Source: Synechococcus sp. CBW1002
GTDB lineage: Bacteria > Cyanobacteriota > Cyanobacteriia > PCC-6307 > Cyanobiaceae
Direction of reading: 5' to 3'
DNA: 64,000 nt
Assembly: GCF_015840915.1 (NCBI RefSeq)
Contig: NZ_CP060398.1
Coordinates: forward strand, 992,001-1,056,000
The position numbers were made by a program, and so were the translations under genes. Each line of letters starts with the position of its first letter. Within the stretch, counting starts at the first letter, position 1. Below, piece after piece: positions 37,652 to 53,274 of this stretch. Under the pieces are notes generated by a model, which worked only from the letters and a program-made list of their open reading frames with translations, searched no databases and was not told the origin of the DNA.

Positions 37652-40213
37652 ATGAAAGTTGCTCGGCTCCGCTTTCTGCGCAAGGGCAACATGCAAGCCC
37701 CCTGCAGCGGGGCTGTCATCGAATTCACCGGGGTCGACCCTGCTGAAGAGCTGGACGCAGAGAGGCTGGCCCGTTGGCTCACGGCGCTTCCCACCAGCCT
37801 GAGGCTCTCACCGGCTGATTGCCAGGGTCCGTTGGTCGCTGTGCTGCCAAGGCTGCTTCTGGCCTGCAGCGAACACGCCCGGCTGGAGCAGGCACCAGTT
37901 CGGCTGCTGCATCAGGGGCCAACAACCCTCTGCCTCTGGCTGCCTGTCGATGACCCCAAGGCCGCCAAGGCGGTCGCAGCCCTCAGCATTCATATCGTTG
38001 AGGCAGTGAGGCGGGGCAACCTGCCTGATGCGACCACAACCAACCACTGGAACGCACTGCGCTCCCGCTTCTGGAACCAGACCCACGCCCACCTGGCCCG
38101 GGCGGCCAATCAGCTGGGAATTCCGTTTGCTCTGGTGGACAAGGATTGGCAGCGGTTTCTCCAGTTGGGACAGGGCTGCCACTTGCGTCTCTTCCATGAG
38201 ACCCTCACCGATCGCACCCCACTCTTTGCCCGCTCAGCCACCAATAAGGAAGCTCTCCACAACCTGCTGAAACATCGCGGTGTGCCTCTGCCGGCCCAGG
38301 AAACAGTCGAGACACTCGAGAATGCGCTGGCCGCCGCTGAACGGATTGGCTGGCCAGTGGTGCTCAAGCCCGCTTCCGGTGGCAAAGGCCGAGGCGTATG
38401 GGTCGGGCTGAGCGACCCGATGGAACTGCGACAGGCCTGGCAGAGCCAGGAGCAGAGCGGCGAGGGGCGGCAGCTGTTGCAGCAGAACCTGACGGGGGCA
38501 GACCATCGCCTGCTGGTGGTGATGGGCAAGTTGCTGGCGGTGGCGCAGCGCCAACCGGCAACGCTCATCAGCGATGGCCTGCTACCCCTGCACAGGCAGA
38601 TCGCAGTCCTCAACGCTGATCCGGAGAGGGGCGTGGGCTATGAACGCCTGAAGAATCGCGTCCCGGTGGACGGCCGGCTCGATCTGATCCTGGGCGAGCA
38701 GGGCTTCACGCTGGCATCTGTACCTCCGGCCGGCACGCGGGTTCAGCTCTCCCGCACGGCCAACATCTCCCAGGGCGGCACGGCAATCGATTGCAGCGCC
38801 CGGGTGCATCCCGACAACCGCCGCCTCGCTGAGGACATTGCCCAACTGATCGGTACCGACGTGGTGGGCCTCGACCTGATCAGTCGTGACATCGGCGTGA
38901 GCTGGCGTGAAGGCGGCACCTGGCTGCTGGAGGCCAACCTCTCCGCTGGCCTGCGGCCCCATCTCCTGGCCGATCCTGATACCGATCTGTGCCAGCGGAT
39001 TGTTCGCCTCTGGATGGGTGAGCATCCACAGGCGGGCCGGATCCCCATCGCGCTGATCACCGGCAGCGTCGGCAAGACCACCACAAGCCGCATGCTCGCC
39101 CATTTGCTCCTCGATGCCGGGAAGCGGGTGGGCCTCTGCTCCAGCACGGGTGTGGAGCTGGACGGGCAGCTGATCAAGGCCGGTGATCTGGCGGGAGGCG
39201 GACCGGCGCAGTGGCTGCTGCAAGACCGCCGGATCGAAGCCCTGGTGGCGGAAGTCGCCCGGGGTGGCATCCTCATGGCCGGCCTGGGGATCGAGAGCGC
39301 TGATGTGACCGCCGTGCTCAATGTGCTGGATAACCACGTCGGAATGGACGGTATTCGCTCGCGCGAAGATCTGGCCCGGATCAAGGCGGTCGTGGCCCAG
39401 GCTGCCGAAAAGCTGTTGGTGGTGAATGCAGATGATCCTCTGACACTGGGCATGGCCCAGAACCGAGACCCCGCCACTGTCGCCCTGGTGAGCGAGGATC
39501 CGGGGTGCAGCGCCTGGCACGCCCACCGCAGAGCAGGACACCTGGTGGCGAGCTACAGCAGAGAGCGGCAGGGGAACATCAAGTTGCACCATCAGGATCA
39601 GCAGCTCCTCTCTATCGCTTTGCGCGAGATTCCCGCCTCAGACGATGGGGCCGTCGGCACGATTGCCACAGCTGCAGCATTCTCCGCGGCACAAGCCATT
39701 GGGCTTGGCCTCAAGGCAGACCAGATCATCCAGGGGCTGCGAAATTATGGGCTCAAGGCGAGCCATCGCCGCGGGCGGTTTGAAATTCTGATGCGCGAGC
39801 CCTGGCAAGTCGTGCTCACCTGGGCCGATGGCCCTGAAGCGATGGCCTCCCTCTCCAGCTACGCCCTGGCCGCCACCGAGGCGGAGCCATGCCGCAGAAT
39901 GTTGCTCTGCTCAGCCCCGGACACCCGTCCGGATGCTTTTCTGCAGAAGGTTGGTCAGGCCACCTGGGGCTTCGATCTTGTGGTCTGTGCCGCATGGAGT
40001 GAACGGAGGAACAGAACTCCAGACATGGTGCCTGCTCTTCTGGCCAAGGGAGTGCGCAGTCTCGGCCCCGACGGGCCAGCGGTATTGGAGTCAGGACTGG
40101 AATCCGAAGCAGTGGCCTTGCTGGCCGAGCAGATCCGGCCAGGGGATTTTTGTGTGGTCTCCACCTTTGAGAGTGAAATCATGAGGGAAAAATTGCTCGC
40201 AGCCTTGAGCTGA
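37652..40213 (+). CDS. Cyanophycin synthetase (CphA)-like ATP-grasp/Mur ligase
   Basis: An 853-residue relative of CphA, which builds cyanophycin (a poly-Asp backbone with Arg side chains) from Asp, Arg and ATP. The ATP-grasp domain (about 190-440) has VLKPASGGKGRG near 236, DHRLLVVMGKLLAV, TANISQGGTAID and EANLSAGLRPHL near 427 with the Mg-binding Glu and Asn. The Mur-ligase-like part starts at ITGSVGKTTTSRM near 469 and continues with EVARGGILMAGLG near 533, NHVGMDGI, NADDPLTLGM and RRGRFEIL. Two deviations stand out: the N-terminal domain is divergent and lacks the H-x3-EH-VALELQ motif of CphA, and the usual DYAHNP is TWADGP. No cyanophycinase gene is nearby. The product may be cyanophycin or another peptide polymer. 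Confidence 0.85.
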   Translation: MKVARLRFLRKGNMQAPCSGAVIEFTGVDPAEELDAERLARWLTALPTSLRLSPADCQGPLVAVLPRLLLACSEHARLEQAPVRLLHQGPTTLCLWLPVDDPKAAKAVAALSIHIVEAVRRGNLPDATTTNHWNALRSRFWNQTHAHLARAANQLGIPFALVDKDWQRFLQLGQGCHLRLFHETLTDRTPLFARSATNKEALHNLLKHRGVPLPAQETVETLENALAAAERIGWPVVLKPASGGKGRGVWVGLSDPMELRQAWQSQEQSGEGRQLLQQNLTGADHRLLVVMGKLLAVAQRQPATLISDGLLPLHRQIAVLNADPERGVGYERLKNRVPVDGRLDLILGEQGFTLASVPPAGTRVQLSRTANISQGGTAIDCSARVHPDNRRLAEDIAQLIGTDVVGLDLISRDIGVSWREGGTWLLEANLSAGLRPHLLADPDTDLCQRIVRLWMGEHPQAGRIPIALITGSVGKTTTSRMLAHLLLDAGKRVGLCSSTGVELDGQLIKAGDLAGGGPAQWLLQDRRIEALVAEVARGGILMAGLGIESADVTAVLNVLDNHVGMDGIRSREDLARIKAVVAQAAEKLLVVNADDPLTLGMAQNRDPATVALVSEDPGCSAWHAHRRAGHLVASYSRERQGNIKLHHQDQQLLSIALREIPASDDGAVGTIATAAAFSAAQAIGLGLKADQIIQGLRNYGLKASHRRGRFEILMREPWQVVLTWADGPEAMASLSSYALAATEAEPCRRMLLCSAPDTRPDAFLQKVGQATWGFDLVVCAAWSERRNRTPDMVPALLAKGVRSLGPDGPAVLESGLESEAVALLAEQIRPGDFCVVSTFESEIMREKLLAALS

Positions 40214-44492: not shown

Positions 44493-45275
44493 ATGCTCCT
44501 CGATCTGCGCGGCAAGAAGGCCCTTGTCACCGGCATCGCCAACAACCGCTCGATCGCCTGGGGCATCGCCCAGCAACTGGCGGCGGCCGGGGCCGAGCTG
44601 GGCGTCACCTACCTGCCGGATGAGAAGGGCCGCTTCGAGGCCAAGGTGCGCGAGCTCACCGCGCCCCTGGCTCCCACCCTGTTCGAACCGCTCAACGTGC
44701 AGGACCCCGCCCAGATCGAGGCGGTGTTCGCGCGGGTGAAGGAGCAGTGGGGCTCGATCGATGTACTCGTGCACTGCCTGGCCTTCGCCGGCAAGGACGA
44801 ACTGATCGGCGACTACTCCGACATCAGCCCCGAGGGCTTCGGCCGGGCCCTGGAGGTGAGCGCCTATTCCCTGGCGCCCCTGTGCCGCTGGGCCAAGCCC
44901 CTGTTCAACCCGGGCGCCAGCGTGATCACGCTCAGCTACCTCGGCGCTGAGCGCGCCATCCCCAACTACAACGTGATGGGCGTGGCCAAGGCGGCGCTTG
45001 AGGCCTCGGTGCGCTACCTGGCCGCCGAGCTGGGCCCCGACAAGCAGGTGCGGGTGAACGCGATCAGCGCCGGCCCGATCCGCACCCTGGCCAGCTCCGC
45101 CATCGGCGGCATCCTCGACATGATCCACAACGTGGAGGAGAAGGCCCCCTTGCGCCGCACCGTGACGCAGGATGAAGTCGGAGCCACCGCCGCCTTCCTG
45201 GCAAGCCCCCTGGCCAGCGGCATCACCGGTCAGGTGCTCTACGTGGATGCGGGCTACTGCATCACGGGAATGTGA
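44493..45275 (+). CDS. fabI: Enoyl-[acyl-carrier-protein] reductase (NADH)
   Basis: Last reduction step of fatty-acid elongation. The 260-residue short-chain dehydrogenase fold has VTGIANNRSIAWGIAQQL near 13, the FabI-type NAD loop, VHCLAFAGKDELIGDY, and the Tyr of YNVMGVAKAALEA with the Lys six residues on, the FabI Y-x6-K pair. ISAGPIRTLASSAIGG is the substrate-loop region. ATG at 44493 sits directly before the conserved LLDLRGKKALVTG. Its stop overlaps the start of the next gene (GTGATG), the first gene of the AT-richer island. Confidence 0.97.
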   Translation: MLLDLRGKKALVTGIANNRSIAWGIAQQLAAAGAELGVTYLPDEKGRFEAKVRELTAPLAPTLFEPLNVQDPAQIEAVFARVKEQWGSIDVLVHCLAFAGKDELIGDYSDISPEGFGRALEVSAYSLAPLCRWAKPLFNPGASVITLSYLGAERAIPNYNVMGVAKAALEASVRYLAAELGPDKQVRVNAISAGPIRTLASSAIGGILDMIHNVEEKAPLRRTVTQDEVGATAAFLASPLASGITGQVLYVDAGYCITGM

Positions 45276-46366
45276 TGGGATCATCCGGGATCAGGCAGGG
45301 CATGTGGGGCCTGACCTGTTACTTCAATCCCCTTGGTTGGAAGTCGCGACGAAGGATCTTCGAGATCTTCCGCAGGGCCTTGAGGATTCCACTTGTCGTG
45401 GTGGAGTGGAGTCCATCAGGCCAGTTTGAACTAGAATCTGGGATTGGCCTGAAGGTTCTGCAGATCAGCGGAGGCAGCATTCTATGGCAGAAGGAGAGGC
45501 TTCTGAACATTGGCATCAAGGCGCTTCCCGAGGAATGCACCCATGTGACATTGATGGATGCTGATCTCATCTTTGAAGATGCTGACTGGCCGGAGAAAGC
45601 AATCTCAGCATTGAAGATTTATCGGATAATCCAACCCTTTTCCGAAGTCTGTCACTTGCCATCAACCATCCAGTCCGATGGGTTCCTGAGCGAGTCGGAG
45701 GAGCCTCCTTACACATCAAGATGCATCGGACTGGGGCATGCCTTGTCGAGGGTAGCCGATCAGAAGGAGCTTCTGAATCAGATCATCAGCAATCAATGCC
45801 TGCGGTTTCAAGATCTTCTGGAGCAAGGGAGGAGTAGTGAGCAGTCTTCAAGGCGCGAGGATGAGAATGCTTTCAAGGAATTGCCCATCCCAACCCCGGG
45901 CCTTGCCTGGTCCTGCCTTCGGAAAACACTGGATCAGTTGGGCGGAATACCGGATCGCTTCATCGGCGGTGGGGGAGACCTTTTCCTGATGCTTGGGCTG
46001 CTCGGGCGAGGCGATGATCTCGTCGCAGGCTGCAATGCAGCTGGGCTCACGTATGTGAACCATGTCGCCTATCAGAAGTTCTGTGGATCACAAACCCAGC
46101 GTGAAAAGCCAATGGGCTCCTTGCCTCAGCGTGTCTTCCATCTCCACCATGGCTCACTCTCGAACCGCCATTACGATGCTCGACATGTGGCCCTGCAGTA
46201 CTTGAATATCGACCTCGACGCACACCTCGGATTCGACAGCTCTGGCCTTCTTTGCTTTCTGGGTCCAGGCAAAGAGCTGATGGAACGTCATTTACATCGT
46301 TACTTTATGGAGAGAATGGACGACGATGATCTCTCAGCCATCGCACACCCTAGAAGCCAGCGCTGA
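45275..46366 (+). CDS. Putative GT-A type glycosyltransferase
   Basis: A 363-residue protein with the layout of a metal-dependent GT-A transferase. It starts like other family members with LTCYFNPLGWKSR. LMDADLIFEDADWPEKAI near residue 93 supplies the D-x-D. LPTPGLAW-like PTPGLAWSCLRK near 208 is followed by FIGGGGDLFLMLGLLG near 229, the GGGD block seen in some galactosyltransferase-like proteins, and HHGSLSNRHYDARH near 292. The ATG at 45275 overlaps the fabI stop; a GTG one codon earlier is also possible. It ends with a TGATG overlap into the GT2 membrane synthase, so both work together. Codon use and composition are more AT-rich than the core genes. Sugar and acceptor unknown. Confidence 0.7.
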   Translation: MGSSGIRQGMWGLTCYFNPLGWKSRRRIFEIFRRALRIPLVVVEWSPSGQFELESGIGLKVLQISGGSILWQKERLLNIGIKALPEECTHVTLMDADLIFEDADWPEKAISALKIYRIIQPFSEVCHLPSTIQSDGFLSESEEPPYTSRCIGLGHALSRVADQKELLNQIISNQCLRFQDLLEQGRSSEQSSRREDENAFKELPIPTPGLAWSCLRKTLDQLGGIPDRFIGGGGDLFLMLGLLGRGDDLVAGCNAAGLTYVNHVAYQKFCGSQTQREKPMGSLPQRVFHLHHGSLSNRHYDARHVALQYLNIDLDAHLGFDSSGLLCFLGPGKELMERHLHRYFMERMDDDDLSAIAHPRSQR

Positions 46367-48156
46367 TGGTATGGCCCATTCTTGCATCGGTCCTCACCTT
46401 GATGCTGGTGGTACCGATTCACCTCAGGCTGTGGCTGCCGGTCGGCGATCGCCGCTTCAGTCAGCCGGGTCACGATGGCAGGGGTGGAGAGCCGCTTGGT
46501 TTCAATATAATTGGCTTGCTGTTCTGCGTCCTCACGTTTCATCTTGCCTGGACGTTGTCCAGCTGTTCCACCGCTCCTACTGCCACCGGTATGGCCTTGC
46601 TGCTGCTGGGGAATACGCTTCTGGCACCTTGCTTCTTTGCCTGGGCCCATACGCTTTGGTTTTACAATGGTTTGAGGAAGCTGCCCATCGATCGGCCTTG
46701 GTCGAGCGAACTACCCCGCTCTGTTGTCGATGAACTTCCCTCTGTATCTGTGGTTGTTCCTTGTAGGAACGAGCCCCTTGCAGTGGTTCGGCTCACGATC
46801 GAGTCTGTACTTAATTTGGAATATCCCAAGCGAAAGCTCTCACTCGTTGTAACTGACAATAGTGATGATGATGATGGCGAGCTGAGAGGCTTATGCCAGT
46901 ACATCCACCAACTGACGTCTGTTGGAGTGAATGTGAGCTTGTTGCATCGCCGTGGCACTGAGGGGTTCAAAGCGGGGAACCTCGATCATGCACTCAAGGA
47001 GATCAGCGCAGATCTGGTGCTGTTTTTGGATGTTGACAACTCCATTCCAGCAGATTCTCTGATCAATCATGTGGGGGCTTTTGATAAAGAAGGTGAGCTG
47101 GCATTCTTGCAATTTTACAATGTTCCAGTAAGTCAGCCGCTCGGCCGAGTGCCCTCAGCCACGGCAAATCTATTAGAAAGAATAAAGTTTGAAGAATTCA
47201 TCCGCGCAGACCTAGGTGGATGGCCAATGTTCCAAGGACACAATTGCATCTGGCGAACATCAGCACTGAAGCAGATTGCACCACTAAGTCAAACACTATG
47301 TGGAAAGAGTCTGCTGGTCGAGGACATGCACATGACCCTCCGAACCAATCGGCTGGGCATGCATGGCAGGATGGTGTGGAGTCCTGCAGCGTTCTGGTCA
47401 CCCCTGCGCTTGGTTGATCTGGAATCGATGCTTGTGCGGTGGTGCTACGGCACAATCCAGATCCTACCGAAAGAGTTTACGTTCCTACTTTCTCGCTGTC
47501 ACGGTTCCTTGACGCTGTGTGAGTATATGGATCTTTGGGACCGCCTCATTGGCAGCCGGGCAAAGGCGTTGTTCCCCTTCATTCTGATCCTGCTGCCCAA
47601 GTGGGGCAAGGGTTCGGAAGCTCTCTTCGCCTGCTGGGCCTTCATCTTATTGATCGAAACCGTCATTTCCATCACTCCTGCTCGGCCCGACTACGACGCA
47701 CCTCACGCACCAAGGCTGCACCCCAGTAAATTGTTCGATATCTTTCTGCTGGGTCAATTCGCAAGATGGTGCGATCTGAGGGCGATGGCTGAACTTTTGA
47801 TACCCCGAAGAAAGCGGTGGGTTCCCACAAGCAAAGTAGCAGCCTCAGATCAGTCAAAGAATCGGCAGGCGCCCACCTCATTCGGTGAAACAAAGCGCCG
47901 CCCTTTTGGCTCCCTTGGCCTCCCTCTTGCCTGCCATCTCAGCCTCATAATGCTAATTATTATGCATCAGATCCTTGACCCAATGAGTCCTTCTGCATTG
48001 GTTGCATGGATTCCTTTGATGGTGCAAGTATTGGGAGTATTGGCAGCTATAATCATATGCCGCCAAGCGAATCCAGTCGGTTCAGAATCGCTCATCTTGG
48101 CATGTTCGGCAATTCGTTGGGGACGCATCCATGGAAGAGATCACGTCGCGCCTTGA
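46366..48156 (+). CDS. GT2 membrane synthase, cellulose-synthase-like
   Basis: A 596-residue membrane protein resembling processive GT2 synthases. Three or four hydrophobic segments lie at the N-terminus (to about 110). The catalytic domain follows: VSVVVPCRNEPLAVVRLTIES near 127, DNSDDDDG near 163, FLDVDNSIPADS near 220 (D-x-D), QGHNCIWRTSAL near 290, VEDMHMTLRTNRLG near 317 and RWCYGTIQ near 358, in place of the Q-x2-RW motif. Two to four further hydrophobic segments fill the C-terminal third. Such enzymes polymerise and extrude a polysaccharide, but a single-sugar transfer is possible. It is coupled to the upstream glycosyltransferase (TGATG) and is followed by the epimerase gene after 95 bases. 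AT-richer than the core. Confidence 0.8.
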   Translation: MVWPILASVLTLMLVVPIHLRLWLPVGDRRFSQPGHDGRGGEPLGFNIIGLLFCVLTFHLAWTLSSCSTAPTATGMALLLLGNTLLAPCFFAWAHTLWFYNGLRKLPIDRPWSSELPRSVVDELPSVSVVVPCRNEPLAVVRLTIESVLNLEYPKRKLSLVVTDNSDDDDGELRGLCQYIHQLTSVGVNVSLLHRRGTEGFKAGNLDHALKEISADLVLFLDVDNSIPADSLINHVGAFDKEGELAFLQFYNVPVSQPLGRVPSATANLLERIKFEEFIRADLGGWPMFQGHNCIWRTSALKQIAPLSQTLCGKSLLVEDMHMTLRTNRLGMHGRMVWSPAAFWSPLRLVDLESMLVRWCYGTIQILPKEFTFLLSRCHGSLTLCEYMDLWDRLIGSRAKALFPFILILLPKWGKGSEALFACWAFILLIETVISITPARPDYDAPHAPRLHPSKLFDIFLLGQFARWCDLRAMAELLIPRRKRWVPTSKVAASDQSKNRQAPTSFGETKRRPFGSLGLPLACHLSLIMLIIMHQILDPMSPSALVAWIPLMVQVLGVLAAIIICRQANPVGSESLILACSAIRWGRIHGRDHVAP

Positions 48157-48251
48157 AATAAAGCACACCGGTAGGCGCAAGAGTCGGTCAGCCAGTTTCT
48201 CGACCAATGCAGGGTAATCCTCTGCGGACTGATCTCTAACTTTCATTAGCA

Positions 48252-49475
48252 ATGATGAACTCCGATCGAGTGCGACAACTACTCCACACCCACGTGCTGG
48301 AGGTTTGGTTTCCTCGATGTTTTGACCCTGCTGGACCCGGCCTCTTAGCCGAATTCGGTCCAGACTGGGCACCGAGACATGGTCGTCCAAAGCTTCTGGA
48401 ATTCAGTGTACGCCAGGGCTGGGCCGCCACGGTTCTTGCTGCCCAATTCCCGCAGCATGCAGAGATCCTTCATGAAGCGGTCCGGAGAGCGAGACACGAC
48501 ATCGATCATGTCTTTCATGATCCTCACAGCGGCGGCTGGCGGCAGTGGAGCAATCCCATCGAGGGTCGACAGCAAGGGTCCGAAGTCCATCTCCATGGAT
48601 TGGCCTATATGATCAGCTTTGAGGCAACTCGGGCCCTGCTGTTCCCACAAGATGGAGCACTGGAACGATCCCTTGCCTGCTGGCACTGGGTGACCCAGGC
48701 AGTCGGAGACACCCTCCCAATCGGCCTGCGAATACCCCTTACCAGTGCAGACCCTGGGGAAGCCTGGCATCGGCTGGATGGCGTCGGAACTCCTTATGCT
48801 CTATGCGACCTCAATGTGCTTGGGGACTGCTTCGAAGCACTGGTCTTGCTGCATCAGGCCTGGCCCGAGTCAGACCTCTTGCCCCAACTTGAGGCACTAA
48901 GAGATCAACTGCTCAGCCTGGTCCACAGGGCAACCGGTACAGTGCAGTTCTTTTTCAATTCAGTTGGAGAAGTCGGGCCAGGACATCATTGGAGAATTGG
49001 CCAGACCTGGCAATTGGTCAAACGGATACTTCAGGCTGAGGTGATCTTGCCAATCACGCCTGAGACAATCGGGACCTTGAAGTCAATTGTCTGGAACACT
49101 ATCGAAAGGGCCTGGGATGATATGGGTGGCGGCTTCTTCTTCGCTTTGCCTCATTGCCTTCCAGACTCCATTGAAGGGCACGACTTAGTTGTACGGCGAA
49201 AGAGTTGGTGGGTGCAGTTTGAGGCACTGGCAGCCCTAGACGCCGTTGCTGTTACCGCGCATTTTGACAAGGCTACAAGGGTAACAGCCTCAGAGTATAC
49301 GAGCAAGACACTCACATTCATTGAACAATATCTCTTGGATGAGCATTCGGGTGGTTTCTTTGATCATGTCGCTAACAGTGACGAGAATAAGACAGATCTC
49401 TTCAAAGGTGGGGCCTGGAAAGATGCCTCTCATGAGACGCTCTGCTTGAGCCAATTGCTCGAAAGGGCAGGATAA
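48252..49475 (+). CDS. N-acylglucosamine 2-epimerase (AGE) family protein
   Basis: A 407-residue (alpha/alpha)6-barrel protein of the AGE family, which covers N-acylglucosamine 2-epimerases, cellobiose 2-epimerases and YihS-type aldose-ketose isomerases. Recognisable blocks are HVFHDPHSGGWRQW near 86, HLHGLAYMISFEAT near 113, GPGHHWRIGQTWQLVK near 237 and GGGFFFAL near 297, followed by RRKSWWVQFEAL near 320. The His of GHHWR and of HLHG are plausible active-site residues of the barrel. The ATG at 48252 is used; the next codon is also ATG. Located 95 bases after the GT2 synthase, it may supply or modify the sugar for that polymer. Substrate cannot be set from sequence. Confidence 0.75.
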   Translation: MMNSDRVRQLLHTHVLEVWFPRCFDPAGPGLLAEFGPDWAPRHGRPKLLEFSVRQGWAATVLAAQFPQHAEILHEAVRRARHDIDHVFHDPHSGGWRQWSNPIEGRQQGSEVHLHGLAYMISFEATRALLFPQDGALERSLACWHWVTQAVGDTLPIGLRIPLTSADPGEAWHRLDGVGTPYALCDLNVLGDCFEALVLLHQAWPESDLLPQLEALRDQLLSLVHRATGTVQFFFNSVGEVGPGHHWRIGQTWQLVKRILQAEVILPITPETIGTLKSIVWNTIERAWDDMGGGFFFALPHCLPDSIEGHDLVVRRKSWWVQFEALAALDAVAVTAHFDKATRVTASEYTSKTLTFIEQYLLDEHSGGFFDHVANSDENKTDLFKGGAWKDASHETLCLSQLLERAG

Positions 49476-49722
49476 ATCACTGCTTTGAAGGACTACTTAC
49501 TTCTGACCAGCATTCAATCTGCAATCACTCAACGAGAGAGCCTGCAGCAGTCGTAGCACCAAGGTTTTCGCTCGATTGTCTTGATTGCTCCGAAGGGGAA
49601 GTCTCATATTCCGGCAGCCCTAGAGCCTTAAGGTTACACAGGGCCTCCTGAGAAAGTAAGAACCAGCCCCAGGTCAGCAAAGTGGGGAGGCCCCGGCCTA
49701 ACACTGAGTGTTGCTCAGGCTG
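49476..49722. other. Intergenic, left edge of transposase remnant
   Basis: No gene found. The stretch from the AGE stop to the remnant contains a Gly/Pro-poor, AT-richer sequence. A block around 49640-49665 (GGGCCTCCTGAGAAAGT) has the look of an IS terminal repeat, but I could not match it to a right-hand partner. Confidence 0.4.
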
Positions 49723-50041
49723 CTATCCGGCGACAATCTGGTTGAGCGATCGGCCAAGGGGGTTGACGCGGGGCATACGGGTTCTCCATAAGTTGTTCAA
49801 CCAGCTCTTCGTCTGTGATCGCCATGCGAGCTTTGATGATCAGGGCACCCAATGCCATTCGAAATGGCTTGGCAGGTGCCCCAAAGCCTTTACAGAACTG
49901 CGACGCGTAGTCGTCCTCCAGCTCATCCCAGGGAATGAGCTCAGCAAGCTTGATCAAGCGATTATCACCTGAGAGTTTGCCGCCAAACGGCAAGAAGAAA
50001 TCCTCAAACGAGAGCTGATGACGATGCTCGCGCTGATACAT
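49723..50041 (-). pseudogene. Transposase remnant, IS5-type N-terminus
   Basis: From the ATG at 50041 the minus strand reads an N-terminal transposase segment: HQLSFEDFFLPFGGKL, DNRLIKLAELIPWDEL and MALGALIIKARMAITDEELVEQL, as in IS5/DUF772 transposases. At MENPY near residue 90 the homology stops and the frame runs into Pro-rich residues. In the next frame the sequence continues as PRVNPLGRSLNQIVAG followed by TAG at 49723-49725, which may be the transposase C-terminus. This fits an internal deletion that removed most of the DDE domain, about 350-400 residues. The gene is inactive. I did not identify complete terminal repeats. Confidence 0.72.
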
Positions 50042-50171
50042 ATGAAAAACTCTGGGCTGGTTTTCGGCGACATCGAGCCGAATTGAACACATTCTACAGT
50101 TGAAATCTGCTCGGATCTACTGCGGCACAGCCGCTCTGCCCTTTCGCAGGAGGCCCGACTTAGCTGGTAGT

Positions 50172-52229
50172 TCAGTGAGTGTTCCACTTGCTTATAGACC
50201 TTGCTTCCTGTCTTCTTTGCAGCAACAGAATGATCTGCTCGGCAATCTCATTGGCTGACTCTCCTGATGTCATGACAACCTTGGCTGGCCCCACAGGGAG
50301 GTGCGTAGATCTATCTTTCGATGCCAAAACAAGTTCGGCTCGGCTGACGAGCCAATGCTCCCATGATTGAGGCATAGGAGCCTCTCCGTCAAGCAAAACC
50401 AGGAGATCTGTTCTGGCCCAAGGCAGTCCATCTTTCATCAGCGATTGGCTCTTCAGCTCAAAAAGAAATGCTTCAACATCAGGGTCGGATAAAGCCTGTC
50501 GATAGCTGTTGAAATTGCGACTGTCTGCTTGCTGCCAGACGATGCTTCCATCACGCCGACCTTGACGGTCAACAACAGCCAACTCGGGATGAGTCTCCGA
50601 GAGTGCATCCGCAAGTGTGTTGATCACAGTTGGAGTAATACCTCCTCCATGGAACGCAATCAAGGGTGGCCTGACCAAATCTTCTAGCAACAGGGCGAGA
50701 GTTTCCCCCATGAGCTTTCGATTCGGCTCAGCCAACTGATGGGGAAGGATTCCCGGCATTCCATTCACTTCACAGATCACGCCCCCATTCCGATGTAGGG
50801 GTTCTTCCATCGTCGGAGCGATCACATCAATACCAACCACGTCCAGATGAAAGATTTTACCAACTTTAGTCAGTATCTGCCTGTTAGCTGGATGAACCTC
50901 GGCTAGGCATTCACGTACGGTTCCTCCCATGCTGAAGTTGGCGGAAGGGCTCAGTTGAATGGTGTGTCCATCGGCTGGAATGCTGTCGGCTGTGAGGCCC
51001 TGGGCCTTCAGAAGGTGCATGGCCTCCTGGTTCAGATTGATTCGGTTGAATCTACTTTTCTCGCCACCCTCCATGATGATGGGGGAATGCCAGCGGCGAA
51101 GATTCTCCTTTTCTACAAGTGCTCGAACCTTGCTGCTGCCATCTCCTCGGATATGAGCCGGGATTCGTTCCACTCCCGCCAGTAATTTTCCCTTCACCAC
51201 ATAAAAGCGAAAGTCTCTCCCGATGATCTGCGGTTGGAGTAGTACAGGTTTGCCTGCCTGTTCGCTGCGTCGAAAGGCTTTTTGCAGCACCTCCCGGCTC
51301 TCGATATTGGTGACAACACCCTTACCTTGATCCTCATTGGCCGGCTTAGTGACGACTGGATAGCCCAGTTTTTCCGCCAGAACCATTGCGTCTCGAAGCG
51401 TCCAAACAGGTCCCCCTGCAGGCGCTGGCAGTCCAGCCTTGGCAAGCAGCCTTGCAGTCACCACCTTCTGCTTGACACTGTGCAGACCCCAACCGGAGGT
51501 TTGATCTGTGAGCTTCTGCGACAGACGCCGTTGGCCGCGACCACGACCGACGACGAGCATCGGCATCCCTCGATTGAGTTGCTCAAAGTGCCAGTCCATA
51601 CCCAGTTCGACAAGATGAAGAGCCATGGCTGGAAGGGCAGGTTTGGGCCCAGGCTTGCTCGAAGGAGCGGAGGCAAGAACTTCGCGCCGGTGCCGACCCT
51701 TTTCATCATTCAGAGCAAGGTTCCAAAGTTTGATCGACCAACGCAGACCATCAAGCAGCTCCTGAACTGGCCAATCCTGCATATCGACTTGAATGCGTAG
51801 AAATTCATCCTCCGTGCCTCCTCTCCCATCTACTCTGGATCGAGAATTCAAGTGCCGCGGTTTTTCTAGCCGAAAGGCTCCTGAGCGAACTTGCAGTCCG
51901 TCAAGCCAGCGTGGGATCCATGTCTCAATATCAAGAACTGGAACTATCTCCAAGCCTACGCTATCATATTCCTCTTCCTGATTAGGATCAATTACCGGGT
52001 CACAGTTAGCGCCTTCCTCTAGTTGCTCTTTTCGTTGTATCCTGAAGCTCTCCAAGAGGACGTTTGAATCCGGGATCTCCCTTAGAAGCTCTCGCAAACG
52101 CTGAGTATTCGGCTTGTGCAAAAGTTGCTGCAGGCGCAGCTTGTCAACTTTGAGTCGAAGCACCCCAACCGGCCAGGGACTCATGGGACTGCTTCCTTGA
52201 AAGATTCCCAGGAGATTGAACTGGATCAC
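50172..52229 (-). CDS. CphA-like ATP-grasp protein with degenerate Mur-ligase domain
   Basis: A 685-residue protein in which residues about 255-510 form an ATP-grasp domain close to that of cyanophycin synthetase: VVTKPANEDQGKGV near 295, GRDFRFYVVKGKLLAGVERIP, IRGDGSSKVRALVE, SANFSMGGTVREC and GGVICEVNGMPGI near 484 with the Mg-binding Glu and Asn. The C-terminal 160 residues align in position with a Mur ligase, but the P-loop is replaced by AFHGGGITPTVINTL and the Mur catalytic motifs are missing. The first 200 residues resemble no domain that I know. The GTG start overlaps the methyltransferase stop (GTGA). CphA2, which joins beta-Asp-Arg dipeptides, also lacks a working Mur site, so a similar role is possible. 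The substrate is unknown. Confidence 0.75.
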   Translation of the reverse strand: MIQFNLLGIFQGSSPMSPWPVGVLRLKVDKLRLQQLLHKPNTQRLRELLREIPDSNVLLESFRIQRKEQLEEGANCDPVIDPNQEEEYDSVGLEIVPVLDIETWIPRWLDGLQVRSGAFRLEKPRHLNSRSRVDGRGGTEDEFLRIQVDMQDWPVQELLDGLRWSIKLWNLALNDEKGRHRREVLASAPSSKPGPKPALPAMALHLVELGMDWHFEQLNRGMPMLVVGRGRGQRRLSQKLTDQTSGWGLHSVKQKVVTARLLAKAGLPAPAGGPVWTLRDAMVLAEKLGYPVVTKPANEDQGKGVVTNIESREVLQKAFRRSEQAGKPVLLQPQIIGRDFRFYVVKGKLLAGVERIPAHIRGDGSSKVRALVEKENLRRWHSPIIMEGGEKSRFNRINLNQEAMHLLKAQGLTADSIPADGHTIQLSPSANFSMGGTVRECLAEVHPANRQILTKVGKIFHLDVVGIDVIAPTMEEPLHRNGGVICEVNGMPGILPHQLAEPNRKLMGETLALLLEDLVRPPLIAFHGGGITPTVINTLADALSETHPELAVVDRQGRRDGSIVWQQADSRNFNSYRQALSDPDVEAFLFELKSQSLMKDGLPWARTDLLVLLDGEAPMPQSWEHWLVSRAELVLASKDRSTHLPVGPAKVVMTSGESANEIAEQIILLLQRRQEARSISKWNTH

Positions 52230-52897
52230 AGCACAGTGGATGGAATTGTCTGTGGGGTTCGCTGAACCAGCGTGACACCTTGAGCAATCGGCAGGTCAAA
52301 AACCTGAAGGTCGCGCCGACCCCTTAATTCTTCAATATAGCGCCAGGTTGTGTGGGCATAGCTCTTCTCCTTACCATAGATTTCCGAGATGACCTGACTA
52401 TGGCTATCATGAAATAGAGCTATGGCCCTAGGAGTCAGCCGAGGAAGAAAGGATTCAAACTCCAATCGGCATTGCTCCTCTGTATGGAGGCCATCGATAA
52501 ACAGAAGATCAATAGCCATCCTGGAAAATTCAGGCTCAGCAATGACCTCTTGACTTGTCTGTTGTCGATGTTCAATACAGGTGATACCGTATGAGGAGAA
52601 ATAGTCTTTAGCTCGTCCATCTTTCCATTGATTGTCGACAAAAGATGGATCGATGAACAAGAGACTCCCTGAGTTTCCATTGTCCTGAATTGCCTGACCA
52701 ATCAAGAGGGGCACGAAGCCGCGCCAAGAGCCGATGACAATCGAAAAGCTTGGGCGAAGTGTTCGCGTCAAGCCATAGTATGTCCATCCAAGGCCAAGGT
52801 CCTTGACCTCCTGCCGTTGTCCATGGCCCATTTCCCAGAGATCGGGGTTATCTGCCATGGCGGCTATCAGGCTGGGCAGACGTAATTCAGGGCTCAT
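52226..52897 (-). CDS. Class I SAM-dependent methyltransferase-like protein
   Basis: A 223-residue Rossmann-fold protein of the methyltransferase_24 type. SIVIGSWRGFVPLLIGQAI near 52 takes the place of motif I, SLLFIDPSF near 78 is the acidic motif, LLFIDGLHTEEQCRLEF near 132 is the typical IDGxH block, and ALFHDSHSQ near 159 follows. The motif I glycine pattern is looser than in most methyltransferases, so it could also be a related hydroxylase-like protein. Its stop overlaps the GTG of the ATP-grasp gene by four bases on the same strand, so the two proteins very likely act together. The start ATG at 52897 directly faces an empty 377-base gap. Confidence 0.7.
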   Translation of the reverse strand: MSPELRLPSLIAAMADNPDLWEMGHGQRQEVKDLGLGWTYYGLTRTLRPSFSIVIGSWRGFVPLLIGQAIQDNGNSGSLLFIDPSFVDNQWKDGRAKDYFSSYGITCIEHRQQTSQEVIAEPEFSRMAIDLLFIDGLHTEEQCRLEFESFLPRLTPRAIALFHDSHSQVISEIYGKEKSYAHTTWRYIEELRGRRDLQVFDLPIAQGVTLVQRTPQTIPSTVL

Positions 52898-53274
52898 TCA
52901 AGGCCGGTCAATGAGTTAATAATACCAGAGTCTCACATCTTCCCACGTGGACTTAGCCCTTCAAGCTATTCAGGCCAGCACGCTGGCTGCACCGACAGCG
53001 GATGTTGATGGCAAGCTGAGCCTACCTGCGGTGCATGAAAGCAGAATTCAGACACCCTTCGATCGTGATTCTGAGCTGAAGCCCACTGGAGAATCACTTT
53101 GAATTCCCCGCGCACGGCCGCTGAGTCTTGCAAGACTTCTCCGGGAAAGAGGAAGAGGCCTTATCAGGCAAAAGACAGCGCCCTGATCTTTATTCTCTTT
53201 TGCAGACTCAAGCATGCAACGCTTCTGAGAAAGCGTCCGTGGTGCCTTTCCGGCCGCTCCACTACCACCAGGGG
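52898..53274. other. Intergenic region at the right edge of the island
   Basis: No gene is convincing here. Small frames at 53048-53278 (minus) and 53099-53356 (plus) overlap each other and the carbonic anhydrase gene, and show no family features. The region includes the promoter of the methyltransferase gene and the 3' flank of the carbonic anhydrase gene. It marks the change from AT-richer sequence back to GC-rich core. Confidence 0.5.

Follow-up and report, generated by a model that had tools for sequence, protein, structure and literature searches.

A methyltransferase gene overlapping the gene for a CphA2-layout ATP-grasp ligase in Synechococcus sp. CBW1002, with a possible role in glycan tailoring

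Introduction

CphA2 is a known single-ligase form of cyanophycin synthetase. In the published descriptions, the M domain of CphA2 has neither a P-loop nor a lid (PMC9427784). Of the residues that recognise cyanophycin, E215 binds the arginine side chain at the end of the chain and R458 lies near the alpha-carboxylate of the incoming aspartate (PMC9427784); the HxxEH motif is given as absent from CphA2 (PMC9262961), and a cyanophycinase is recorded in 98.7% of 79 CphA1-encoding cyanobacteria (PMC10206079). A stretch of 64,000 nucleotides from Synechococcus sp. CBW1002 (contig NZ_CP060398.1, positions 992,001 to 1,056,000; hereafter the window), whose 3.85 Mb genome is a single contig, contains a methyltransferase (MT) gene that overlaps the gene for an ATP-grasp ligase with the layout of CphA2. 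The original prediction, made from the window alone, held that no described cyanophycin pathway is known to have a coupled methyltransferase, and none turns up among the open-licence papers listed by the searches, as judged by titles and the beginnings of abstracts.

For this pair we infer an activity, substrates, an order of steps and a link to a glycan, and the reading that we tentatively prefer, with somewhat less than even confidence, is an amide ligase of CphA2 layout and new specificity that tailors a surface glycan together with a glycan-type O-methyltransferase. The ligase would catalyze a single reaction, in which the ATP-grasp domain turns a carboxylate into its acyl phosphate before joining it to an amine; its short, P-loop-less Mur-like end would be retained as structure, and its substrates would differ from those of cyanophycin. 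The MT would be an O-methyltransferase of the glycan-operon kind, and the two proteins, their translation coupled, would work on a single product, which, with the neighbouring glycosyltransferase, would most likely be a surface glycan or glycolipid that is O-methylated and substituted with an amino acid or amine.

The gene pair and its occurrence

As had been noticed in the original prediction, the frames of the MT and the ligase share the four bases GTGA; the MT gene ends in ...CTGTGA and the ligase gene starts with GTGATC. A comparison with other genomes reveals that neither the pair nor this overlap is confined to the window, as both are present in a second genus, in Synechococcus sp. 1G10 (junction ...CAGTGA / GTGATC), which is the only other carrier found and whose copies are 51% (ligase) and 71% (MT) identical. 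This genome, for which the handles G123 and L034 both stand (6000 shared bases are identical), is counted once throughout. The two ligase copies are identical at 63, 71 and 36% of codon positions 1, 2 and 3, respectively, and the two MT copies at 76, 85 and 35%; both frames look to be under selection between the two species. The near-equal identities at position 3 suggest that the ligase and the MT have travelled as one unit.

The pair is rare in the samples of genomes that were drawn. The ligase is present at full length in two of the 201 family genomes sampled, namely the present one and 1G10 (one of two genomes of the former's genus and one of nine of the latter's). Among the sorted matches listed for 386 genomes of the phylum, only the present copy is full length and a second match covers residues 230-621; this draw seems to leave out 1G10, a carrier that would have matched. 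The MT is full length in the present genome only, both among 60 relatives (three partial matches) and among the 386 phylum genomes (two partial matches). Plasmid records yield 128 ligase matches and phage records eight, none of which spans more than 80% of the ligase (the five listed for phages span 32-34%); the MT has no match in phages, and no viral contig is confirmed. A phage origin of the pair was considered and dropped, the phage-record searches having given no full-length ligase and no MT match. The surroundings of the pair show no conspicuous promoter or terminator (two promoter-like elements against 2.3 expected and five terminator-like elements against 3.9 expected).

Layout of the ligase

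Residues 224-614 of the ligase match NF010623, the model for cyanophycin synthetase, with 260.3 bits, far below the cut-off of 877, and the ligase scores 239.7 bits where the second NCBIfam cut-off for cyanophycin synthetase is 850. Among solved structures, the closest in sequence is the cyanophycin synthase 7wac (E 1.3e-48), followed by 7ta5 and 8fxh, both of which we take to be CphA2 (the labels in the structure table are glutathione synthase and RimK domain protein). Domain lengths, motifs and residues were read from an alignment of 64 family members, which comprise the two pair ligases, 14 proteins labelled here as CphA2-type by their length, the lack of a P-loop and their placement in one tree clade, 30 CphA1 proteins and 18 others. 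L083, the only one of the 14 CphA2-type proteins compared with structures, matches 8fxh (917 bits) and 7ta5 (734 bits) over its whole length.

The N, G and M parts measure 221-227, 298 and 155-166 residues in the two pair ligases and 183-215, 299-301 and 151-166 residues in the CphA2-type proteins, and the M part of the 30 CphA1 proteins measures 389-444 residues. Because these lengths agree with those of the 14 CphA2-type proteins and not with those of the CphA1 proteins, the layout of the ligase is not new, although its N part is somewhat longer, and an unknown N-terminal domain combined with a Mur-like end is not supported as a novel arrangement. The Mur-type P-loop GTNGKT and the lid of CphA1 are absent from both pair ligases in the alignment. 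The heptapeptide GGGITPT does stand at the place of the P-loop, as proposed; this feature is mostly ordinary, since a short end without a P-loop matches CphA2. The ligase of 1G10 has GGEEARA at this place, so no P-loop is conserved and GGGITPT is a relic. In the Mur-like end, Pfam additionally gives a weak hit to DUF4938 (E 0.0004), whose 20 bits fall below the cut-off of 32.

The roughly 200 N-terminal residues, described as unassigned in the original prediction, do stay unassigned by Pfam: residues 1-195 alone give no match at E values up to 5, in a search whose filters drop most matches above approximately 0.1. The HxxEH zinc motif is absent from both pair ligases, from all 14 CphA2-type proteins and from all 18 others, and is present in 28 of the 30 CphA1 proteins. 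With a broad N-domain profile built from 61 sequences, HH-suite scores set against 100 shuffles are 12.6 for the global alignment (shuffle mean 3.7, standard deviation 2.2, maximum 12.45) and 19.7 for the local alignment over 25 columns (mean 11.9, standard deviation 2.0, maximum 19.06), neither of which is reached by any shuffle, and the program's own probabilities are just 1.2% and 2.4%, respectively. The score of the CphA1-only profile is no better than chance, as it is reached by 53 (local) and 41 (global) of the 100 shuffles; that of the CphA2-only profile is reached by 4 (local) and 100 (global). HMMER with the broad profile gives 4.6 and 4.9 bits for residues 1-200 of the two copies, values reached by 1 and 2 of 500 shuffles, and with the CphA1-only profile gives nothing for the two copies (its scores are reached by 122 and 500 of 500 shuffles), other pieces being mixed. 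Structure predictions are poor, with a mean predicted local distance difference test (pLDDT) score of 36.1 for the ligase (three sequences) and 40.7 for the N part (two sequences). The N part, in which the sequence signal for the CphA N domain is very weak, is probably a diverged form of that domain, which is likelier than a new domain because it occupies the same place as in CphA1 and CphA2, despite a length of 221-227 compared with 158-215 residues.

Active site of the ligase

The roles of the residues are taken from PMC9427784, and the substrate site is located here by sequence alignment. All eight general ATP-grasp residues are kept in the window ligase as K255, K295, R341, R355, N431, S433, D468 and E487, which correspond to K220, K261, R309, R323, N394, S396, D431 and E450 of CphA1. 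Three positions are changed, to H250 (E215 in CphA1), Q301 (H267) and L495 (R458), and the residue at position 215 is His in both pair ligases. Among the 30 CphA1 proteins, position 215 is E in 28 and D in two, R458 is invariant, and position 267 is H in 26 and Q in four; in the 14 CphA2-type proteins, position 215 is D in 11 and E in three, R458 is never present, and position 267 is always K. E215 occurs in only two, and R458 in six, of the 18 other family members. As judged from the alignment, the inventory for ligation is intact and that for cyanophycin recognition is not, and this loss of the residues that read cyanophycin indicates that the compound made or modified by the pair is probably a different one. 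Losses of this kind are frequent in the CphA-like proteins of the family. The changes at E215 and R458 would offer a direct, testable readout of substrate choice.

It is quite improbable that the protein is a divergent form of CphA2 whose product is still a storage polymer of the cyanophycin type, modified by methylation. The shared layout is what this explanation predicts, and the missing R458 is equally missing from all 14 CphA2-type proteins, but every CphA2-type and CphA1 protein in the alignment has D or E at position 215, where both pair ligases have His. Additionally, the pair ligases form a separate long branch (starred, length 1.88) that does not fall within the 14-protein CphA2 group (the deep order of the tree is not resolved), and the genome gives no cyanophycinase match with model TIGR02069, the only model used, diverged hydrolases, CphE and CphI not having been searched apart.

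The methyltransferase and its relatives

The assignment of the MT to the Methyltransf_24 type in the original prediction is confirmed by a match to the Pfam profile PF13578 (E 1e-17), with 65.4 and 66.8 bits for the two copies, above the gathering cut-off of 26.3. Relatives of the MT are found in 11 plasmid records, with identities of 24-33% among the eight matches listed. Glycan genes are present in all five of the neighbourhoods that were read: two glycosyltransferases in the first; glycosyltransferases and rhamnan synthesis F in the second; dTDP-rhamnose genes, an ABC exporter and rhamnan synthesis F in the third; glycosyltransferases and wecB in the fourth; and an ABC transporter, a glycosyltransferase and dTDP-rhamnose genes in the fifth. 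The MT also gives a very weak match (E 0.66) to PDB entry 6g7d, which is presumably a sugar O-methyltransferase. Separately, the MT relative in the family genome G005 was considered as a glycosyltransferase fusion, a candidate that was rejected because no glycosyltransferase family is found in its 658 amino acids examined.

The neighbourhood and the relatives of the MT point to a glycan rather than to the modified peptide or small natural product proposed in the original prediction. In its specific form, this alternative, which we regard as less likely but as a serious rival, holds that the ligase joins two small molecules into a peptide or amino-acid conjugate, that the MT caps the product and that the glycosyltransferases are mere neighbours in the island. 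The pair does lie on its own strand with its own divergence, and in 1G10 it is followed by a radical SAM/SPASM gene. Other CphA-like ligases lie near an aKG-HExxH-type hydroxylase gene in the present genome and near a P450 gene and a methyltransferase gene of a different kind in 1G10. ATP-grasp, methyltransferase and SPASM genes occur together in graspetide loci (PMC8939145), described in a paper whose available main text mentions neither cyanophycin nor CphA. Against a conjugate stand the five glycan neighbourhoods of the MT relatives.

The island and its neighbours

Table 1. Features of the gene pair and of the surrounding island, in window coordinates
Feature	Position	Strand	Remarks
Methyltransferase (MT), class I S-adenosylmethionine-dependent, Methyltransf_24 family	52226..52897	minus	223 amino acids, ATG start, first gene of the pair
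CphA2-layout ATP-grasp ligase	50172..52229	minus	685 amino acids, GTG start within the MT stop
N-terminal part, perhaps a strongly diverged CphA N domain	51564..52229	minus	residues 1-222, no HxxEH
ATP-grasp (G) domain	50670..51563	minus	residues 223-520
Truncated Mur-like end (M core)	50172..50669	minus	residues 521-685, without lid-sized extension
GGGITPT in the M-domain P-loop position	50628..50648	minus	residues 528-534, aligned with CphA1 GTNGKTT
Low-GC island (approximately 8 kb)	45276..53274		between fabI and the carbonic-anhydrase gene
Protein of 364 amino acids, no Pfam family	45272..46366	plus	76% identical copy in 1G10
Family 2 glycosyltransferase (GT2)	46366..48156	plus	nearest NCBIfam cellulose synthase, 84.5 bits, below cut-off
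N-acylglucosamine 2-epimerase-like protein	48252..49475	plus	profile match
Short open reading frame with transposase domain DUF772, probably a fragment	49715..50092	minus	Pfam profile search

The pair lies in an island (Table 1) with a guanine-plus-cytosine (GC) content of 52.9%, compared with 68.9% in the rest of the window; the corresponding values in 1G10 are 54.8% and 69.9%. In six of seven relatives the site is empty, the gene next to fabI being that for the carbonic anhydrase, with hisB after it, and the seventh has a partial carbonic-anhydrase match about 1.4 kb further on, at the end of the available stretch. The 1G10 contig stops 284 bases before the MT start, and the edge of the island there is outside the contig. 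It is very unlikely that the pair is without function today and decaying as the cargo of a mobile island, as the low GC content, the transposase fragment, the empty sites and the rarity of the pair would suggest, since its frames are intact in two genera, conservation at codon positions 1 and 2 far exceeds that at position 3, and the catalytic residues of the ligase are kept. A role in anti-phage defence was also considered and rejected, the five island proteins having no PADLOC match at E 0.01.

The 364-amino-acid protein contains a DxD-like stretch and may therefore be a GT-A glycosyltransferase; its gene occurs in the same two of the 201 family genomes as the ligase and, among the 386 phylum genomes, at full length in the present one only, with one partial match. 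The GT2 has a copy in 1G10 with 62% identity. The identity at codon position 3 between the two genomes is 65% for the 364-amino-acid gene, 52% for the GT2 and 76% for fabI. The glycosyltransferases are thus closer at this position than the pair and may have a different history, and the idea that all island genes form one unit is weakened by this unequal divergence.

Several points weigh against the tailoring of a surface glycan as the role of the pair. The glycosyltransferases are on the opposite strand and differ in divergence, and the gene between them and the pair is not the same in the two genomes, being the epimerase-like gene here and the radical SAM/SPASM gene in 1G10, where no epimerase-like gene stands at that place. 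The plasmid relatives of the MT listed are distant (24-33% identity) and none of the 11 covers 80% of it; residues 112-169 of the MT weakly match PHROG 2675, labelled DNA methyltransferase (E 1.9e-5); and the nearest relative in a family genome (G005) is part of a 1352-amino-acid frame of which the 658 residues examined hold Methyltransf_24 only. By the alignment, the substitutions are not special to the pair, as E215 is replaced in 16 of the 18 other CphA-like proteins and H267 by Q in four of the 30 CphA1 proteins. Finally, the substrate site of the ligase is read from the alignment alone, and the predicted models are poor.

Other CphA-like genes

Cyanophycinase matches (TIGR02069) are present in all six genomes with canonical CphA1, including G032 of the same family, and in none of four family genomes (G123, which is 1G10, G035, G141 and G082) that have CphA-like ligases without canonical CphA1. 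Five tested genomes, with the present one, thus carry such genes without canonical CphA1 and without a cyanophycinase match, and the annotation "cyanophycin synthetase" may mislead there.

The window contains a second CphA-family gene (37652-40213), whose product has a Mur P-loop-like GSVGKT and reaches 495 bits, short of the 850-bit cut-off. It belongs to a clade of four CphA1-like proteins (support 100/100; the others are L035:8525-11086, L044:7597-10185 and L009:577-3162) with the P-loop GSVGKT or GSIGKT and with E215 replaced by R, K or Q; none of the four genomes has a cyanophycinase match, and the proteins of this clade may make something other than cyanophycin. In 1G10 (L035:7723-12156), the CphA1-like gene is preceded at a distance of 40 bases by a gene for a 253-amino-acid methyltransferase (Methyltransf_23/11) and followed immediately by a PGA_cap (CapA-type) gene; in the open reading frame list of the window, neither gene is seen beside the CphA1-like copy.

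Further CphA-like genes have neighbours of various kinds. In the present genome (L004:868-3714), a CphA-like ligase gene (624 amino acids) lies tail to tail with a gene for an aKG-HExxH-type peptide beta-hydroxylase, and in 1G10 (L047:5091-8738) about 480 bases separate a CphA-like gene from one for a cytochrome P450. In G082 and G035 (L043:4390-9353 and L044:2632-10185), a CphA2-like gene is followed by the gene for a protein of 537-539 amino acids, which matches no Pfam family, and by that for a group 1 glycosyltransferase (445-462 amino acids); in G035 a CphA1-like gene directly precedes that CphA2-like gene. In G149 (L048:5109-8462), a CphA-like ATP-grasp gene and the gene for a stand-alone Mur ligase (middle and C domains) face each other, as though the two halves of a CphA had come apart.

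A broader and rather doubtful proposal is that the CphA2-layout ligase has been re-purposed to substitute a carboxylated glycan or glycolipid with an amino acid or amine, that the coupled O-methyltransferase acts on the same product, and that the ligase is one of a wider set of picocyanobacterial CphA-like enzymes, without cyanophycinase, that have moved out of storage metabolism. If this is true, cyanophycin synthetase would not be just a storage-polymer enzyme, and picocyanobacteria would have put its ATP-grasp core to use in other ligations.

Comparison with known systems

Like graspetide loci, as described in PMC8939145, the locus brings an ATP-grasp ligase close to methyltransferase and SPASM radical SAM genes (the latter in 1G10), but graspetide ligases act on ribosomal peptides. 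With CphA1, the pair ligase shares the eight residues from K220 to E450 listed above; in contrast to CphA1, it lacks the Mur P-loop, HxxEH in the N part, E215 and R458. The similarity with CphA2 extends over the N part, the ATP-grasp domain, a short Mur-like core without P-loop or lid, the single ligase site and the lack of R458. However, the G domain of the pair ligase is just 28.5-33% identical to those of the 14 CphA2-type proteins, His replaces E/D215, Q replaces K at the H267 place, and the gene overlaps that of the MT in a genome without a cyanophycinase match. The MT shares the Pfam family and the stretch FIDGLHTEE...FHD with the Methyltransf_24 proteins of glycan loci (rhamnan synthesis F type), whereas it differs from them as a stand-alone protein of 223 amino acids that is coupled to an ATP-grasp ligase.

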